A program made the position numbers and the translations under genes. This document shows, piece after piece, positions 38,266-47,094 of a stretch of 57,773 bases of DNA. The notes under the pieces were generated by a model. It did not search any database. It was not told the DNA's origin and saw only the letters and a program-made list of their open reading frames with translations. The DNA is from Verrucomicrobiota bacterium (GTDB lineage: Bacteria > Verrucomicrobiota > Verrucomicrobiia > Chthoniobacterales > Terrimicrobiaceae), in the NCBI GenBank assembly GCA_026398255.1, contig JAPLTG010000023.1, positions 1 through 57,773 of the forward strand, in the 5' to 3' direction. How positions within the stretch are numbered: the first letter of the stretch is position 1; each line of letters starts with the position of its first letter.

Positions 38266-41200
38266 TTAGAATGAGAACCCGAGCGAGGTGCTGATGATGT
38301 TGTTGGTGTAGCCCTCGGCTCCGAAGTTCACATTGTAGAACACCGATCCGTTCCAGCGATCGCCGAACTTCGCGCTGATGCCGGCTCCGCCGAAGACGCT
38401 GTTGCGATACGGGGCGCTGGTTTCGTAGTCGAACGACGGGCCGCTGCCGCCTTCAAGCGCGGAGCTGATGTTGCGCGGGTTGTTCAGGAACTCGTGCATC
38501 CAGAAGCCTCTCACTTCGGGGATGAGCGTGATGTTCGAGCCGACTTCCCAGTTGTAGGCGATGCGCGCGCCGAGGTTGGTGCGGAGGCTGTTGGCGTTTT
38601 GGTGGCCGAGCGCCAAGTCGAGGCTGTCGGCTCCGCTTTCCGTGAAGCCGCCGATGCCGGCGTAGGTGTATTGGGCTCCCACGATTGGGCCGAGGGTGAA
38701 ATTGCCGATCTCGAAGTCTTTTCCGAGATTCAGCGCCGCGCTGAATTGGCCGCTGTTCGGGTCGGCGGATGGGGTGCGGTCGATTGTGCTGAACTCGATG
38801 GATCGGCGGGTTTGGAAGCCGGTGTAGCCACCGCTCACGATGGCGTCGGCGTAGTAGCCATCCTCATGCGTGTAGCTGCCGTAGAGACCGAAGAGCGCAC
38901 TGTTTCCGCGGGTGCTGCTGCCGCCATCATATTTCGCGTAGCTGTATTCGTAGCCGGCAAAAAGGCCTGCGGCGAAGTTCTCGCTCAGGCGGTAGTCGGC
39001 GCCCACGAGGAAGCCGCCCGCATTGTTGTTGTAGTTTGGAACACCCGCCAATCCACGCGAGAGCGAGAACTCGCCGTTTGCGATTACCCACGAGTTCCAG
39101 TTCGTATCGATGGCGGATTCCACAATCGGCGAGGCCGTTTTTGCATCCGCTGCGCTCTTGCCATCCTTGTCGTATTTGATCGGCTGGCTCATTCCGATGG
39201 CTTGGAAGCCTGTGGCCCCGAGGCGGACGGAACCCATGCGCTGGGTGAGGAGTTGGGTTTGGTTGTAGGTCTGCTCGATCGCGATATTCGCCAGGCTCTC
39301 GTAGAAGCCGGGCATGATCTGCTCGAAGGCGTAGGGGTATTGCTCGGCGGTTTGCAAATCGAGCGCGATGCTGACGGTCTCTCGGTCTCCGCTGGTGGCA
39401 GCGATGAACGAGTCGAGCGCCTTGGCGACATTTTGCTGATTTGGGGTAACCGCCACCTGTGTGTAGGAGTCCGGCGCGATAAGGAGGATGCCCGTTGTGC
39501 CAAGATTCAGGAACCGCCCGCGGAAGGTCGCCGGCGCGGTGATCGTGTCGAACTCGCCGGAGATCCCGCCGCTCGCCACGAGAAACGAATACTGCTGGCC
39601 GTAGGCGAGCGGGTTGCCGTTGTAGGGAATGACATTCAGCGTGCCATCCACCGTCGCCGCTCCGCCGACCACAAGGCGGTCGAAGTTCGTCAGGCTTTCG
39701 ATTTCTATATCCGTCGCAGCGGTGGGCGTGAGGGCCAGGGACGCCATGCTCAGCGTTCCGGGCGAATTGCCCGGCGCCAAATTTCCAGAGACTGTGACAG
39801 GCGCGAAGATCGTGCCACTTCCACCTAGAATGGCACCGGAGTTTACAGCTACGGAATTGGCAGTGAGGTTGCCGTTCAAGGAAAGCAGCCCTGCATCGAT
39901 CGACGCCGTGCCATTGACCGACAGCGTGCTTTGGACATCAAGTTCGCCCGCGCCGGTTTTATTGAAATTCCCCGGCGTCGCCAATGTCCCACCGCTCACG
40001 ACCGAGTTGCCATTTTCAACCGCCACTTGCCCTTGCGACAGCGAGAGCGCGTAGCCGGCTTGAATGGCGAGGTTGCCGTTATTGGTGAATGCCAGGTCGC
40101 GGATCGTGTTGTTGCCGCCGGCTGTGATGACTGTGCCGTTGCCGGTGTTTCCATTCACTGTGAAATCCACCCAGGTCGGCGTGGCCCCGGCGCCGGAATT
40201 GTCGATCACATTACCCGATACATTTGCGCCTTGGAGGTTATAAACCAGCGAGTTTCCGATGATTTGGAAGCTGCCCGAAAGCGAATTGCTCCCGGAGATG
40301 GCAGCCACAAAATTCGACGCTGAGAAGTTCGTCGCACCGAAACTCACGAGCGTATTGTTGCCAAGTTGCAGGGATTGCCCGGTGCCGAAATCCAAAGTGC
40401 GATTGCCAGTGTTTCCCCCGTTCGAGAAATTGCCGCTGATCGTGATGTTGCCACCGTGGGCGAGGGAGATCACTGCATTGGAACTCAACCAAACAAGGTC
40501 GGTCATGCCGCTGAGGACGAGGTTGGGATTTGCAGTGTTCCCAACGGCCAGTGTGCCGGAAGAGAGTGTCAGCGTTCCATTCCCGAGCGCGTTGGCGTGA
40601 AGAGCTTCCAAAACTCCGCCATCGAGTTGAGTGCCGCCGGTGTAGCTGTTGGTGCCGGAAATCGTCACGGTTCCCGAGCCGGTTTTCAGCAACGATCCAT
40701 TCCCGCTCATCACACCTGCATAGGTGCCAGTGAAGCTCTGATCAAAGTTCACCACCGCGTTGTTTGCGATCGCGCCTTGGAGGCCAGCTGTCGTTCCAGC
40801 CAGTATTCCAGAACTTACCGTTGTTCCACCCGTGTAGGTGTTCGAGCCCAAAAGAGTGAGGGTTTTGTTTCCCGCTTTCGTGAGTGAGGCGTTGCCGGAG
40901 ATGGCACCCGAGACAATCAGGTTTGCAGTATTTGTGGCGAAGGTTTGGTTAGCGCCGAGGGTGAGATCGAGTGCCAGTGTCTGGGTATTTGCCGAGTCGT
41001 TGACGATTCCTTCGCCAAGCAATGTCAACGCGCTTCCGTTCACCGTGTAGGAACCCGCACCGGCAAGGAATGTGAGGCCAGACGCAGAATTCAAGAAGCT
41101 GTTGTTCGTGCTAACCCCGCCAGATCCACTGAACTCGATGGCATCGCCGTTCGAAGGCAGCGATCCGCCATCCCACTGCGCTTCGGTAGACCAATTGCCG

Positions 41201-44200
41201 GTGGCGGTATTCCAAGTGGCGGCTGTTTTGTAGTTGAGCAGAAGTGTGGTGTTGCCCGAGCCGAGGCTCATGAAGTAACCGCCCGCAGTCCCGGTCATAT
41301 TCGAAGAATTGAATGTGAATGCCGATGCGTCGAATCCGCTGATGCCCGAGGTGAAATTGCCTATTTGCCAAGAAGCATTCTTCACGCCCGCCAACGACGC
41401 CCCGCCCAGTGTGGAGAGGCTAATTGTGGTTGGATTGCCGGATGTGGCGTTGAGCGTTAGGGTTCCCGCCGAAGCGATCAGATCCCAGCCTGTGCCTGCC
41501 GTGCCATTTGCCGAGGCGAGTTCCCAGTTGTAGATGCCGCCGCCGTTCCACACGCTGTTTCCAACGGTGAGGATTCCGGGGCTGTTGCCAGGGTTGATGG
41601 CGCCGCCAGAGTTGATGGTGACAACACCAGCTGTGCCGTTGCCGGTGAGAATACCACCTGAATTGATGGTGACAGCGCCGAGGCTTCCGTTGCCGGTGAG
41701 GGTTCCTCCGTTGTTAATCGTCGTTGAGGCGTTTGCCATGCTTCCGGTTAGGGATACGATGCCGGAGTTGATGGCTGCGGTGCCGTTGAATGAACTACTG
41801 TTACCGCTCAGAGTAAGGGTTGCATTCCCTATTTTGGACAGATCTCCAGATCCGCTCATCACGCCGGTGTAGGTGCCATTGGTGGTCTGGTTAAAGACAA
41901 GGCTGGCGTTATTGGTGATGGCACCTTGGAGGCTCTGGGTATTGCCTTGAAGGGTGCCGGAACTGACAAACGTTCCACCGGTGTAGGTGCTATTGCCTGT
42001 AAGGATCGTTGTTCCCGCGCCGAGTTTGTTTACCGTGAGGTTGCCCTCGAGAATTGGGCTGAACGAGTGGTTACCGGTATGGTTGAAGTTCACGATGGCC
42101 GTGCCATTTCCGGCGGCGACTCTGGCGGCTTGGAGGTTGCCCACCGTGGTGCCGTTACCGATGTTTAAGATACCTGTGGAACTCGATTGAGTAGCCACGG
42201 TCAAATTGCCCGCGCCGCCTACGATGGAGACATTACCACCCGTGAGATTCAGCGTGCCGTTGCCATATCTACCAACTCGCAATCTATCAGAACTCGACCA
42301 AGTGCCCCCGCTGACATTCACGACACCCGTGCTTCCGTTTTCAACTGCGAGGAAGACTCCGGCATTGGATACGTTGCCGCCGGTGATATTCAAGGTTCCA
42401 GTTCCCAAGACGCCGATTTGAAGTTGATCTGCATTTGTCCAGTTGCCGCCGCTCACATTCGCTACCCCAGTGCTTCCAGCATTGAGGCCGATGTAGCAAA
42501 ATCCAGTATTTGAAATGAGTCCACCGGAGAGATTCAGCGTTCCATCTCCGGAATTGCCCACCGTGAAATTGCCGGTGTTCGTCCAGTTGCCGCCACTTAC
42601 TGTCGCCACGCCTCTGCTGCCAGCGTTCACGCCAATGTCGCCTCGCGCGTTGGAAATACTTCCACTCGAGAGATTCAGTGTGCCATTGCCGATATTCGTG
42701 TCTACCAATGCGTGTGTGATACGGCCGTTGTTGCTGATGGATAGTGTGCCACCGGAAATGGTGGTGCCGCCGGTGTAGGTGTTGGTGCCGGAAATCGTCA
42801 CGGTTCCCGAGCCGGTTTTCAGCAACGATCCATTCCCGCTCATGGCTCCCGCGTAGGTGCCAGAGGTCATTTGGTCGAAGTTCACCACCGAGTTGTTGGT
42901 GATCGCTCCTTGCAGGCTGGATGTCGTTCCGGCCAGCATTCCAGCAGAGACGATGGTTCCGCCGGAGTAGGTGTTCGTGCCCGAGAGGGTGAGCGTTTGG
43001 TTGCCCGCCTTGGTAAGCGAGGCGTTGCCGGAGATATTGCCGGAGATGACGAGGTTCGCGGTGTTGGAGGCGAAGGTTTGGTTCGTGCCGAGAGTGAGGT
43101 TGATCGCTACGGTCTGGGTGCTGTTCGAGTTGTTGACGATGCCATCTGCACCAATTGTGAGGGCATTCCCGTTGATCGTATAGGAGCCATTGGCAGTGGA
43201 GGTGAAGGTCACGCCGGAGATTTCCGAGAGGTTGCCGGAGGCGAAGTTGTTCGTGCTGGTGCCGCCGGGACCGGAGAATTCGATCGCGTCGCCATTGGTC
43301 GGGAGCGTGTTTCCTTCCCACTGCGTGGCGGTGGTCCAATTTCCAGAACCTGTGCTCCAGACTGAGCCAGCGGACGCATAGTTGAGCAGCAGTGTCGTGT
43401 TACCACCGCCGAGACTCAGCGAGTAACTGCCCGCACTTCCGCTCATGCCCGTGGCGTTAAAGGTAAAGTAGTCGTTGCTGAAGCCGGTGATCCCAGTAGT
43501 GAAGTTACCGATCTCCCACGAGGCGATCTTCACCCCGGAAAGGGAGCCGCTTCCGTAGCTCGCCAGCCTGATTGTGAATTTGTTGGTCGCATTTGCCCCG
43601 ATCGTAAGAGTGCCAGAGGAGCTGATGAGGTCCCAGTCCATGCCAGCTGTGCCGTTGGCTGAAGCCAACTCCCAGTTGTAAAAGCCGCCACCGTTCCAGG
43701 TCATGTTGCCGGTGGTGAGCGTGCCAGGCGAGTTGCCGGGGGCGATCGCTCCGCCGGAGTTGATAACCACATCGCCGACCGTGCCAGTTCCGCCAAGGGT
43801 GCCAGAGTTGATCGTCACGGCCGAGGTAGAACCGGTGATGAGGAGCGTGCCGGCCGAAATCGTCGTGCCGCCGGTGTTGGTATTTGTGCCTGTAAGGGTG
43901 GTGGTGCCTGTGCCGAGGTGGTTGAGAGACAGGCTGTCTGTCATGTTTGAGCCGAGGCTGTAGCTGCCGCTTTGGTTGATGTTCACGACGGCGGTGCCGC
44001 TGCCGCCAGTGATCGTTGCGGCGCTGAGTGTGCCGGCGGTTGTTCCGTTGCCAAGGTTCAGCGTGCCGATACTGCCAGAAGTTTGGGCTAAGTTCACCAA
44101 GCCGCCGCCGCCGACGGAGACTGTTCCGTTTCCGGTCAGGTTCAGTGTGCCATTGCCTGCGCTGCCTATGAAAAGGGCGCTGGAGTTTGTCCAAGTGCCG

Positions 44201-44586
44201 CCGCTCATATTCACTGTGCCATTGCTTCCGGCGTAGTAGCCTACGCGGCCATTTGCATTCGATACAGTGCCATTAGTGATCGTGAGGCTGCCAGTGCCAC
44301 TTTCGGCTATGTAAAGGTCGTTGGAGTTCGTCCAATTACCGCCGTTCACATTCACCGTGCCGTTGCCAGGCCCTAATCCCACATAGCCCTCTATCTTCGA
44401 TAGGCTGCTGCCGCCATCGATCGTCAGGCTGCCTTGGCCACCCATGCCGACAACAACCACGGGGCCAAAGTCGAAGGCATCTCCAGTATAAGTCACCGCA
44501 CCAAAAGCGGGGTGAGCGGCCGCGAGCAGAAGCAGGCAGAGAGCGGTTGCGAAGCGGAGTGGAAGATTGAAGAAGTGTGTTTTCAT
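38266..44586 (-). CDS. Giant autotransporter with passenger-associated transport repeats
   Basis: A 2106-residue type Va-like autotransporter. Residues 1-29 are a Sec signal (ATALCLLLLAAAHPAFG). The passenger consists of short GTLNLTGGNVSN/GGTWTN repeats (about 60-170 and 640-850) and at least seven copies of the PATR motif, such as LLKTGSGTVTISGTNTYTGG. Residues about 300-610 and 1020-1320 are two diverged copies of one module (NWELASANGTAG ... GDAIEFSG). The last 280 residues (from about 1827, NSWVIANGEFSLSRGLA) form the outer-membrane barrel, ending in a β-signal SLGFSF. The only cysteine I noticed is in the signal. AAGGG lies just before the ATG. It is divergent from a LytS/LytTR operon, with candidate operators between them. 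Confidence 0.95.
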   Translation of the reverse strand: MKTHFFNLPLRFATALCLLLLAAAHPAFGAVTYTGDAFDFGPVVVVGMGGQGSLTIDGGSSLSKIEGYVGLGPGNGTVNVNGGNWTNSNDLYIAESGTGSLTITNGTVSNANGRVGYYAGSNGTVNMSGGTWTNSSALFIGSAGNGTLNLTGNGTVSVGGGGLVNLAQTSGSIGTLNLGNGTTAGTLSAATITGGSGTAVVNINQSGSYSLGSNMTDSLSLNHLGTGTTTLTGTNTNTGGTTISAGTLLITGSTSAVTINSGTLGGTGTVGDVVINSGGAIAPGNSPGTLTTGNMTWNGGGFYNWELASANGTAGMDWDLISSSGTLTIGANATNKFTIRLASYGSGSLSGVKIASWEIGNFTTGITGFSNDYFTFNATGMSGSAGSYSLSLGGGNTTLLLNYASAGSVWSTGSGNWTTATQWEGNTLPTNGDAIEFSGPGGTSTNNFASGNLSEISGVTFTSTANGSYTINGNALTIGADGIVNNSNSTQTVAINLTLGTNQTFASNTANLVISGNISGNASLTKAGNQTLTLSGTNTYSGGTIVSAGMLAGTTSSLQGAITNNSVVNFDQMTSGTYAGAMSGNGSLLKTGSGTVTISGTNTYTGGTTISGGTLSISNNGRITHALVDTNIGNGTLNLSSGSISNARGDIGVNAGSRGVATVSGGNWTNTGNFTVGNSGDGTLNLSGGLISNTGFCYIGLNAGSTGVANVSGGNWTNADQLQIGVLGTGTLNITGGNVSNAGVFLAVENGSTGVVNVSGGTWSSSDRLRVGRYGNGTLNLTGGNVSIVGGAGNLTVATQSSSTGILNIGNGTTVGNLQAARVAAGNGTAIVNFNHTGNHSFSPILEGNLTVNKLGAGTTILTGNSTYTGGTFVSSGTLQGNTQSLQGAITNNASLVFNQTTNGTYTGVMSGSGDLSKIGNATLTLSGNSSSFNGTAAINSGIVSLTGSMANASTTINNGGTLTGNGSLGAVTINSGGILTGNGTAGVVTINSGGAINPGNSPGILTVGNSVWNGGGIYNWELASANGTAGTGWDLIASAGTLTLNATSGNPTTISLSTLGGASLAGVKNASWQIGNFTSGISGFDASAFTFNSSNMTGTAGGYFMSLGSGNTTLLLNYKTAATWNTATGNWSTEAQWDGGSLPSNGDAIEFSGSGGVSTNNSFLNSASGLTFLAGAGSYTVNGSALTLLGEGIVNDSANTQTLALDLTLGANQTFATNTANLIVSGAISGNASLTKAGNKTLTLLGSNTYTGGTTVSSGILAGTTAGLQGAIANNAVVNFDQSFTGTYAGVMSGNGSLLKTGSGTVTISGTNSYTGGTQLDGGVLEALHANALGNGTLTLSSGTLAVGNTANPNLVLSGMTDLVWLSSNAVISLAHGGNITISGNFSNGGNTGNRTLDFGTGQSLQLGNNTLVSFGATNFSASNFVAAISGSNSLSGSFQIIGNSLVYNLQGANVSGNVIDNSGAGATPTWVDFTVNGNTGNGTVITAGGNNTIRDLAFTNNGNLAIQAGYALSLSQGQVAVENGNSVVSGGTLATPGNFNKTGAGELDVQSTLSVNGTASIDAGLLSLNGNLTANSVAVNSGAILGGSGTIFAPVTVSGNLAPGNSPGTLSMASLALTPTAATDIEIESLTNFDRLVVGGAATVDGTLNVIPYNGNPLAYGQQYSFLVASGGISGEFDTITAPATFRGRFLNLGTTGILLIAPDSYTQVAVTPNQQNVAKALDSFIAATSGDRETVSIALDLQTAEQYPYAFEQIMPGFYESLANIAIEQTYNQTQLLTQRMGSVRLGATGFQAIGMSQPIKYDKDGKSAADAKTASPIVESAIDTNWNSWVIANGEFSLSRGLAGVPNYNNNAGGFLVGADYRLSENFAAGLFAGYEYSYAKYDGGSSTRGNSALFGLYGSYTHEDGYYADAIVSGGYTGFQTRRSIEFSTIDRTPSADPNSGQFSAALNLGKDFEIGNFTLGPIVGAQYTYAGIGGFTESGADSLDLALGHQNANSLRTNLGARIAYNWEVGSNITLIPEVRGFWMHEFLNNPRNISSALEGGSGPSFDYETSAPYRNSVFGGAGISAKFGDRWNGSVFYNVNFGAEGYTNNIISTSLGFSF
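40648..40710. repeat. 63-base exact repeat, copy A (inside autotransporter gene)
   Basis: By hand comparison this stretch is identical to 42781-42843. The offset of 2133 bases is exactly 711 codons, so the duplication is in frame. It encodes a PATR motif of the passenger. Confidence 0.85.
42781..42843. repeat. 63-base exact repeat, copy B (inside autotransporter gene)
   Basis: Partner of 40648-40710. The wider protein modules around both copies (about 300 residues) are similar but diverged, so this identical patch suggests recent gene conversion or selection. Confidence 0.85.
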
Positions 44587-44726
44587 TTGAGCCCTTAAGA
44601 TTTTCTTTTTTAAGCGGCGAAGCGGTTGGAATTGTGTTTGAGCGAGCGATTGTTAGAATGCCTCGATTTCATCGCTGACTTAGATACGGACGCCGCTCTG
44701 AAACGCATAGAAAAAACTGAAAAATG

Positions 44727-44761
44727 CGACGAACAGGTCAAAATCGTCGACGAACAGGCCA
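44727..44761. promoter_or_regulatory. Candidate LytTR-type operator, autotransporter side
   Basis: CGACGAACAGGTCA (44727-44740) is repeated as CGACGAACAGGCCA (44748-44761), a 21-base period (two helical turns). On the minus strand each reads TGTTCGTCG, containing GTTCGT, which fits the GTTN(A/G)(T/C) half of the LytTR consensus, though the bases before GTT do not fit. It lies 141-175 bases upstream of the autotransporter ATG. The longer match with the second site covers about 50 bases. Confidence 0.5.
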
Positions 44762-44785
44762 GAGGGGGTGGGAATCCAGCATAAT

Positions 44786-44820
44786 TAACCACAGAGGACA
44801 CAGAGAGCACAGAGGATGAG
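44786..44820. repeat. CACAGAG-type inverted repeat, left arm
   Basis: TAACCACAGAGGACACAGAG continuing to 44820. The reverse complement of 44985-45024 shares the 23-base core beginning at ACCACAGAGG. To my knowledge such CCACAGAGGACACAGAG motifs recur in intergenic regions of unrelated bacteria; the function is unknown. Confidence 0.75.
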
Positions 44821-44984
44821 GTTTTGCAGCAAGTTGAATCCGAAAACTGATTTTTAGACAGGATGATCCGCCTACGAAAAGGCAACTCCGGCGGGACAAG
44901 GCAGGACTAACAGGATATACAAGAAGATTTACGGGGGGGTTGGAGGTAACACACAACATGGAATGCTTATCGAATTGTAAGCAA

Positions 44985-45024
44985 CTCATTCTCTCCTCCG
45001 TGCTCTCTGTGTCCTCTGTGGTCA
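44985..45024. repeat. CACAGAG-type inverted repeat, right arm
   Basis: Right arm, 164 bases from the left arm and in opposite orientation. The pair and the sequence between span about 240 bases, the size of a small non-coding mobile or structured element; there are no obvious target-site duplications directly at the outer edges. Confidence 0.75.
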
Positions 45025-45134
45025 AATAAATCTTGCCGATCCTGAGACGCCGCTTCGCGGCTAAATCTTGGGGTATGCCAACTGAAGCCTCGGGTGTAGA
45101 ACGGGGTGAAGGCATAGGGAAATTCTAAAAAATG

Positions 45135-45169
45135 CGACGAACAGGTCAAAATCCGCGACGAACAGGCCA
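45135..45169. promoter_or_regulatory. Candidate LytTR-type operator, two-component operon side
   Basis: CGACGAACAGGTCA (45135-45148) and CGACGAACAGGCCA (45156-45169), the same halves and the same 21-base period as at 44727-44761. It ends 63 bases before the kinase ATG, a suitable position for autoregulation by the LytTR regulator encoded in this operon. Confidence 0.5.
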
Positions 45170-45232
45170 GCGGGGCGGGAATGGAGGTTGTCGCCGGTCT
45201 TGGTGGATGCCTAAGGTGGGCAAGGAAAGGCG

Positions 45233-46318
45233 ATGGCGAAAAAACAAAAAAACATGCGTGCGGCGTCGGCCATCCTGCAGCCTGATTTCATGCAGAGGCT
45301 CACCTTTTGGCCATTGCAGATCGGGGGCTGGGCATTCCTTATGGTCTTTCCCCTCGGGATATGGCTGGCTGGGGGGAGCAGCGCGGCGCCATTTTTTTGG
45401 CTGGCTTTTGCGAGGGGTCCCTCGGGCTTTGCGCTCACTTCGGCGCTGAGACCGCTGTGCGGCCGCGTCTTCGCGGCGAGGCTCCACTACGCGATTCTTT
45501 TCCCGGGGCTGGTTGTCTCTTCGTTGATCCTTGGCTTTGTCGAGCTGGAGGCCACCTGCTGGCTGGGGCGGTCTTTGGGATTGGCTGCTCCGGTTATTGG
45601 CGCCGACATGATGTATGGGAGCGCCTGGATGATCCGATCTATGGTCCTGCTCCTGTGGCTTTTGCTCTACTTTGGAATCAAATTACTGAAGCGGTTTTTG
45701 GAGGTGGAGAGGGAATTTCAGAGAGCCGAGGTGCGCCTGCTGCGCTCGCAAATGAACCCGCACTTCCTTTTCAACGCCCTCACCACGATCATGGCGGTGC
45801 GCAGGGATGAGGCGAAGGTGGAACTCGTCACGCAATCGCTCGCCGATTACTTGCGCTTCTCTTTGCAGCAGGAGGAGGATGAGCAAATCCATGTGGCGGC
45901 GCATCCGCTTGGCGATGAAATTTCTGCGATGGAAAACTACCTTCGGGTGGAGAAGGTGCGCTTCGGCGACGATCTGGATTGGAGCCTCGATGCAGAGGCG
46001 GATGCGCTGCGCACGCTCGTTCCCTCGGCCTTGGTGCAACCGTTATTGGAAAACGCCATCAAGCATGGTCAGGAAACCAGCCCGCGAATTCTGCGCATCT
46101 CGATCACCGCAAGGGTCGTGCAAAGCAATCTCGAACTCGAAGTGTGCAACTCGGGCCATTGGATCGAGCGCGACCGAACGCACGCGGGCGGCGTGGGATT
46201 GAAGAACCTGAGGAGGCGGTTGGAATTAATCTACGGCCACGCCGCCTCGCTGGACATCCGCCACGGACAATCCACGGTGACGGTGTGCGTGTCACTACCC
46301 GCTCGTCTCTTGCAATGA
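45233..46318 (+). CDS. LytS/YehU-type sensor histidine kinase
   Basis: This 361-residue kinase has about four membrane segments in residues 25-150, then a short coiled linker (LEVEREFQRAEVRLL), the His_kinase domain with phosphoacceptor His177 in QMNPHFLFNAL, the N-box PLLENAIKHG and the G-box GVGLKNLRRRL. It lacks a periplasmic sensor domain of any size, so it probably senses within or at the membrane. AAGGAAAGG precedes the ATG. Its TGA overlaps the regulator's ATG (ATGA), so they are translated as a pair. Confidence 0.93.
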   Translation: MAKKQKNMRAASAILQPDFMQRLTFWPLQIGGWAFLMVFPLGIWLAGGSSAAPFFWLAFARGPSGFALTSALRPLCGRVFAARLHYAILFPGLVVSSLILGFVELEATCWLGRSLGLAAPVIGADMMYGSAWMIRSMVLLLWLLLYFGIKLLKRFLEVEREFQRAEVRLLRSQMNPHFLFNALTTIMAVRRDEAKVELVTQSLADYLRFSLQQEEDEQIHVAAHPLGDEISAMENYLRVEKVRFGDDLDWSLDAEADALRTLVPSALVQPLLENAIKHGQETSPRILRISITARVVQSNLELEVCNSGHWIERDRTHAGGVGLKNLRRRLELIYGHAASLDIRHGQSTVTVCVSLPARLLQ

Positions 46319-47094
46319 ACCCGCCCGCCATCAATCGCGCGATCCGGGCTGTTCTCGTGGATGATGAAAAAGGGGCGCGCATGCACCTCACCGAACGCCT
46401 CGCCGTGCACCCCGGCATCATGATCGTCGGCGAGGCTGACCGCGCGCAGGCGGCCATCGATTTGATCCATCGAGCCAAGCCCGATGTGGTCTTCCTGGAT
46501 GTGCAGATGCCTGGCGGCACGGGATTTTCCCTGCTGCCCCTCCTCGGCGGCATGTGCCCGCCGCCAGCGGTCGTATTTGTAACTGCCTACGACAAATATG
46601 CCCTGAAGGCCTTTGAAGCCAATGCGCTCGATTACCTCACCAAGCCGGTGAGTCCGCCCCGCCTCGCGATCACCATCAAGCGGTTGCAAAATCTCCTCCT
46701 GGCTACCGGTGGGGCTCCCAAGGACGAGTCGGATGCCAGCGCGCCACCCCGCCCGCTGGAAATGCGAGACCTCGTTCTGCTACGCGAAAAAACCTCCCTG
46801 CGGATGGTGGAGGCGGGCGAAATCTGCGCCGTGGAGGCCGAGGCCGACTACACACACATCTTCTTGGCCGATGGGCACAAGGCATTCCTAAGAAAACGCA
46901 TGAGCCAATGGGAAGAGGAATTGCCCACGCCCCCCTTCTGCAAGACCAGCCGTCGGCTGCTGCTCAACACTCAACGCATCATGAAAATCGTGGCGAACGA
47001 TCGCGAAAGCGCGGAAGTCCATTTGCAAGGCATAGAGAAGCCGTTCCTCCTCAGCCGCATCGAGCTACGCCGCCTCCGCGCCGCCTGCGGGTAG
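46315..47094 (+). CDS. LytTR-family response regulator
   Basis: This 259-residue regulator has a receiver domain with VDDE (Asp16/17), phosphoacceptor Asp62 in VVFLDVQMPGG and the KP motif in YLTKPVSPP, then a LytTR DNA-binding domain (AGEICAVEAEADYTHIFL, FCKTSRRLLLNTQRIMKI). LytTR domains bind pairs of 9-10-base direct repeats two turns apart, and such a pair lies upstream of this operon and on the autotransporter side. The start is the ATG overlapping the kinase stop. Confidence 0.95.
   Translation: MNPPAINRAIRAVLVDDEKGARMHLTERLAVHPGIMIVGEADRAQAAIDLIHRAKPDVVFLDVQMPGGTGFSLLPLLGGMCPPPAVVFVTAYDKYALKAFEANALDYLTKPVSPPRLAITIKRLQNLLLATGGAPKDESDASAPPRPLEMRDLVLLREKTSLRMVEAGEICAVEAEADYTHIFLADGHKAFLRKRMSQWEEELPTPPFCKTSRRLLLNTQRIMKIVANDRESAEVHLQGIEKPFLLSRIELRRLRAACG

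Follow-up and report, generated by a model that had tools for sequence, protein, structure and literature searches.

LytTR regulators are mostly activators. Their known sites consist of two repeats of 9-11 nt with spacers of 10-13 nt (PMC4847170, PMC11347149). AlgZ/AlgR of Pseudomonas aeruginosa, like the locus described here, pairs a kinase with a LytTR regulator, has a TTCGTC half-site core, and acts, as is proposed here, in surface and envelope control; the AlgR box is CCGTTCGTC (PMC4064291). The AlgR boxes at algD, however, lie far apart rather than in a fixed 21-bp tandem, and AlgR targets are alginate, pili, and others. BtsS/BtsR (YehU/YehT), YpdA/YpdB, and AgrA resemble the present system in having a pair of direct repeats, each of about 10 bp, spaced by two helical turns, and in combining a LytTR regulator with a kinase (PMC4847170, PMC4227749), but their half-site sequences and their targets are different. 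CoxC and RcoM also use LytTR repeats, with 12-13-nt spacing, but they are one-component CO sensors with three 8-bp repeats (TTCNNGCA) (PMC11347149).

A further comparison is offered by the PEP-CTERM box of Proteobacteria. A conserved cis-regulatory site of PEP-CTERM genes, together with PrsK/PrsR/PrsT, was described in 2006 and reported only for Proteobacteria; the same paper credits Verrucomicrobium spinosum with 65 PEP-CTERM proteins but gives no Prs regulators for it (PMC1569441). That system and the one considered here both connect exosortase and PEP-CTERM genes, through a common upstream site, with a TPR protein and a kinase-regulator pair. PrsR, though, is a sigma-54 activator whose site contains a sigma-54 motif (PMC1569441), whereas the regulator of the present locus is of the LytTR type and its site is a 21-bp tandem. 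LytTR operators built as two-turn tandems are of a kind already known; what appears to be new is their tie to PEP-CTERM genes and exosortase operons. A literature search combining LytTR with PEP-CTERM and LytTR with exosortase found no paper that links them. The sequence evidence suggests that this lineage may control its cell-surface proteins through a regulator class that had no earlier connection with such proteins.

In the window, the whole stretch of 57,773 nucleotides that was analysed, the intergenic region 44586-45233 separates a minus-strand autotransporter gene from a plus-strand kinase/LytTR operon and carries two 32-bp tandems. These tandems are probably operators for a LytTR regulator, most likely the product of 46315-47094, that would switch the divergent surface-protein gene, here the autotransporter. 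The features of the locus are as follows.

38266-44586, minus strand: autotransporter of 2106 aa with a signal region, PATR and T5SS/PEP-CTERM-associated repeats, and a beta-barrel domain; proposed target.
44610-44708, minus strand: short frame MRFRAASVSKSAMKSRHSNNRSLKHNSNRFAA, then a stop, between site 1 and the autotransporter; likely the truncated start of a PEP-CTERM-type gene of relatives (gene in L101, L103).
44712-44767, no strand: extended conserved copy 1, 56 nt, with A-rich stretches flanking each half-site.
44727-44758, minus strand: putative operator site 1, a tandem of two 11-bp half-sites with a 21-bp period, upstream of the autotransporter gene.
44782-45028, no strand: inverted-repeat element with arms 44782-44816 and 44994-45028 (ACCACAGAGGACACAGAG), between the two operators and not part of the switch.
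45120-45175, no strand: extended conserved copy 2, 56 nt, 89% identical to copy 1.
45135-45166, minus strand: putative operator site 2, in the same orientation as site 1, upstream of the divergent kinase gene.
45233-46318, plus strand: membrane histidine kinase of 361 aa (PF06580, His_kinase); proposed sensor.
46315-47094, plus strand: response regulator of 259 aa with receiver and LytTR domains; proposed binder of sites 1 and 2.

The kinase has several hydrophobic segments within its first 160 residues. Passenger repeats and a C-terminal beta-barrel mark the surface protein as a classical (type Va) autotransporter (PF12951 and PF03797, 185 bits). The regulator falls short of two family models: it scores 141.6 bits against the BtsR equivalog NF008677, for which the cut-off is 246, and 33 bits, through its receiver part only, against the PrsR model TIGR02915, which includes the sigma-54 interaction domain and has a cut-off of 502.6.

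The extended copies, located with a repeat finder in the window, start 408 bp apart. Exact copies of CGACGAACAGG occur at 44727 and 44748 in the first and at 45135 and 45156 in the second, which bears out the two near-identical repeats of 21-base period described in the initial annotation. Each copy thus comprises 11-nt repeats with a 10-nt spacer, and on the strand of the autotransporter gene site 1 reads CCTGTTCGTCG twice. The distance to the start codon is 140 bp for site 1 (autotransporter ATG) and 66 bp for site 2 (kinase ATG). With at most one mismatch allowed, the half-site has six matches in the window against 1.32 expected, a number reached in none of 100 shuffles. Genome-wide (2,604,041 bp in 44 contigs) the 11-mer occurs seven times; four of these occurrences are in the intergenic region, and the other three are single half-sites inside long open reading frames. 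The tandem, at up to three mismatches, is found in exactly two places in the genome, both at this locus, whereas a reversed control pattern gave no matches. A search of plasmid records gave no match. A coding origin of the repeat was rejected: a frame beginning MRRTGQ crosses it, but in a related genome, G095, a stop directly follows the ATG (ATGTGACG) and the sites are intergenic. A sigma-70 promoter overlapping the half-site was also considered; neither a -10 nor another promoter element was recognised at a constant distance among 24 aligned sites.

Several lines of evidence connect the tandem with LytTR regulators. The minus-strand half-site CCTGTTCGTCG includes CTGTTCGTC, which agrees with the AlgR box at eight of nine positions. 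The two-repeat layout and the spacer length match those of known LytTR sites and so lend support to a LytTR operator. A scan that assumed no core sequence, carried out at 30 related LytTR-regulator loci, found 20 near-perfect tandem 12-mers with periods of 14-30; 12 of these have period 21, and every other period accounts for between none and three. The binomial probability of this excess is about 1e-10, a figure that overstates independence, because the loci are related to one another. TTCG is a core common to most of the 12. As controls, unselected DNA from the rest of the window (48.7 kb) contained no tandem 12-mer at period 21, and 30 PEP-CTERM gene loci contained three, two of which are these same operators; loci with CGACGAA-N14-CGACGAA were excluded because they had been selected for 21-bp patterns. 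The other two LytTR genes of the window genome (contigs C26 and C34) have no such 21-bp tandem nearby. Comparison of the isolated LytTR domain with solved LytTR structures gave no sequence match, and so no guide to base contacts. It is very probable, judged from these sequence features, that the tandem is a LytTR operator.

Orthologous and paralogous operons point in the same direction. The LytTR regulator gene is tied to the site and kept in relatives, with the exception of G005. In G094, whose regulator is 67% identical, the tandem lies upstream of the kinase gene and about as close to its start as site 2. In G056 (regulator 65% identical) the tandem is on a contig that ends inside an apparent kinase gene, and the regulator is on another contig. 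The window genome itself has a second kinase/LytTR operon (contig C37, regulator 54% identical), and here a 21-bp tandem of a different half-site, CGACGAATCGC, is found upstream of the kinase; G011 retains it, and G048 and G084 have slightly altered forms. Exact CGACGAA-N14-CGACGAA occurs three times in the window genome, always at the two kinase/LytTR operons; across the order this pattern is mostly coding background and is informative only with an A-rich spacer. Further tandem variants are present at LytTR loci of G071, G063, G017, G012, G007, and G064. A scan of genomes with the kinase returned only distant relatives, among which the betaproteobacterium Pollutimonas harenae is informative: GTTCGTCG and ATTCGTCG stand there with a 21-bp offset, immediately before a receiver-like gene divergent from the kinase. 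The two regulator types diverge in the final segment of the LytTR domain (NDRESAEV against RKNLLSWE, for example). These differences fit the different half-sites, short of proof, and the paralogous operons may provide, within one genome, a natural test of how the LytTR domain reads DNA.

The tandems could instead be operators of some other regulator, one at work also in genomes that lack LytTR genes; the LytTR pair would then be a coincidental neighbor or simply one more target. G005, 97% complete, has a perfect site, yet no LytTR gene was found there, and G013 has one site and a single, distant LytTR gene. Such a regulator is nevertheless unlikely. The 21-bp tandems are specifically enriched at LytTR loci, the paralogous operons bear variant half-sites of their own, and the half-site nearly reproduces a known LytTR box; the lack of a LytTR gene in G005 may reflect assembly or recent loss.

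What a LytTR operator of this kind would control is indicated by the genes it faces in relatives. A stricter pattern, searched in 213 genomes of the order, gave 16 sites in nine genomes of three families, against one control match; in a phylum sample of 388 genomes, from which most of the site-bearing relatives were left out, there were no sites beyond the two of the window. Some of the relatives' assemblies are incomplete, and their gene calls are open reading frames, with family matches for some. Followed along the strand that reads TTCGTC, eight of the 16 sites run into secreted-protein genes that are intact or nearly so: the autotransporter gene of the window and seven others, which encode proteins of PEP-CTERM or similar type (one each in G094, G048, and G005, two each in G056 and G007), an assignment made by NCBIfam for the proteins tested, with one G007 protein lacking a family match. 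Two more sites (G094 and G056) lead into short secreted leaders and have a PEP-CTERM gene on the opposite side, and one (G012) leads into a decayed copy of the G005 gene. A site in G095 precedes an operon of TPR protein, exosortase, kinase, and LytTR regulator. The site in G013 stands before a small gene in which no surface signal was seen, and two sites (window site 2 and one in G056) are beside a kinase gene with no gene start directly in front. The strict site is absent from most PEP-CTERM genes of the relatives; this, the G013 gene, the G005 site, and the lack of recognised promoter elements at a constant distance weigh against the proposed switch. The remaining site, also in G095 (L106 7286-7322), is upstream of a cheA-type gene, and the regulon may reach chemotaxis-like signalling.

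The variant operator likewise runs into PEP-CTERM or secreted-protein genes, in G048, G084, G011, G000, G007, and G012. At G017 a tandem lies between a LytTR gene and a PATR-repeat surface gene, and at G064 a triple repeat precedes a kinase-LytTR-exosortase operon. In G012, and apparently in G007, a kinase-LytTR-TPR-exosortase operon and an LPMO10 gene lie on either side of a 21-bp tandem; the LPMO10 gene, of LPMO10-CBM2 type in G012 (L210 7026-8123) and with a similar beginning in G007 (L211 1-672), is divergent from the operon across the tandem. At L210 (G012, contig C14), L211 (G007, C187), L212 (G064, C121), and L105 (G095, C45), the operon that contains the exosortase gene also encodes a TPR protein, a histidine kinase, and a LytTR regulator. 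Such operons would be the LytTR counterpart of the PrsK/PrsR/PrsT set.

Since in relatives the operator is followed by genes of PEP-CTERM proteins or by an exosortase operon, the autotransporter is a special case, and the sites would define a surface-protein regulon rather than an arrangement specific to the autotransporter. It seems reasonably likely that exosortase and PEP-CTERM genes in this order are controlled by kinase-LytTR pairs resembling AlgZ/AlgR, every pair having a 21-bp tandem variant of its own, and that the switch of the window has passed from a PEP-CTERM protein to an autotransporter. If so, LytTR pairs would play in this order the role that the sigma-54-dependent PrsK/PrsR play in Proteobacteria. 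The LytTR system and its readable operator are a testable candidate for the control of exosortase-sorted and autotransporter surface proteins in another lineage, and the operator motif can be used to map the regulon.

The motif and its period, uniqueness, conservation, and orientation, together with the surrounding genes, are read from the sequences. We infer the course of the switch, from signal and phosphorelay to binder, activation over repression, and feedback on the kinase operon, as follows. A signal sensed by the membrane kinase (45233-46318) would lead to phosphorylation of the LytTR regulator, two monomers of which would bind cooperatively to the two half-sites, which share one face of the DNA at a spacing of two helical turns. 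The bound regulator would then switch, and most likely activate, the divergent surface gene toward which TTCGTC reads. Repression is also possible, since CoxC, a LytTR protein, is a repressor (PMC11347149). Site 1 would be a second copy of the kind found before PEP-CTERM surface-protein genes in relatives, whereas site 2 is arranged as at the orthologous operons and may in addition exert feedback on the kinase/regulator operon.

The sites keep a conserved orientation in which TTCGTC reads in the direction of the surface gene, opposite to that of the kinase, as at the autotransporter, and for this reason the surface gene is the likelier main target. Autoregulation of the kinase/regulator operon is possible but less certain, because both sites point away from the kinase. 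The initial annotation had proposed LytTR operators common to the regulator operon and the autotransporter, with one regulator governing both. Likeness to the AlgR box, the 21-bp enrichment, conservation in orthologs and paralogs, and uniqueness in the genome uphold the operators, and control of the surface gene stands as the likelier main role; the autoregulatory half of the proposal is left as merely plausible.

It is conceivable that site 2 alone works, as an autoregulatory site, and that site 1 is a by-product of local duplication that leaves the autotransporter uncontrolled. Site 2 and the G094 site are indeed similarly close to their kinase starts, and the two copies, 408 bp apart, look like the outcome of one duplication. 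This reading is very unlikely, however, because other genomes have the operator before surface genes, away from any kinase gene and oriented as at the autotransporter, and because the leader that follows site 1 is conserved with such surface-protein genes.

A repeat sequence similar to the ACCACAGAGGACACAGAG element between the operators follows the site in G013 (L100). That the 56-nt sequence is itself a piece of a dispersed mobile or repeated element with no regulatory role, the alternative named beforehand as one that would count against an operator, is hardly credible and largely refuted: an inverted-repeat element does lie between the copies, and a similar repeat does follow the G013 site, but the genome-wide tandem search found just two copies in 2.6 Mb, both here, and in relatives the flanks differ but tandem, period, and gene context are preserved.

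The short frame 44708-44610 aligns with the start of the PEP-CTERM-type genes that the operator precedes in two relatives, G005 and G007; the decayed G012 copy aligns with it as well. The signal region of the autotransporter resembles that of a G007 protein with a PEP-CTERM-like end (L102). Autotransporters occur in several genomes of the genus, and none of these matches is on a site-carrying contig. Read most simply, the autotransporter gene would have ended up behind an operator that may formerly have served a PEP-CTERM protein. The passenger repeats TIGR04393 and TIGR02601 are combined with a beta-barrel in the window and, in a protein encoded close to the kinase of G094, with a PEP-CTERM end. 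The G094 protein, encoded near the orthologous kinase operon (L094 4525-11121), is likewise a giant one and joins autotransporter-type repeats to its PEP-CTERM end.
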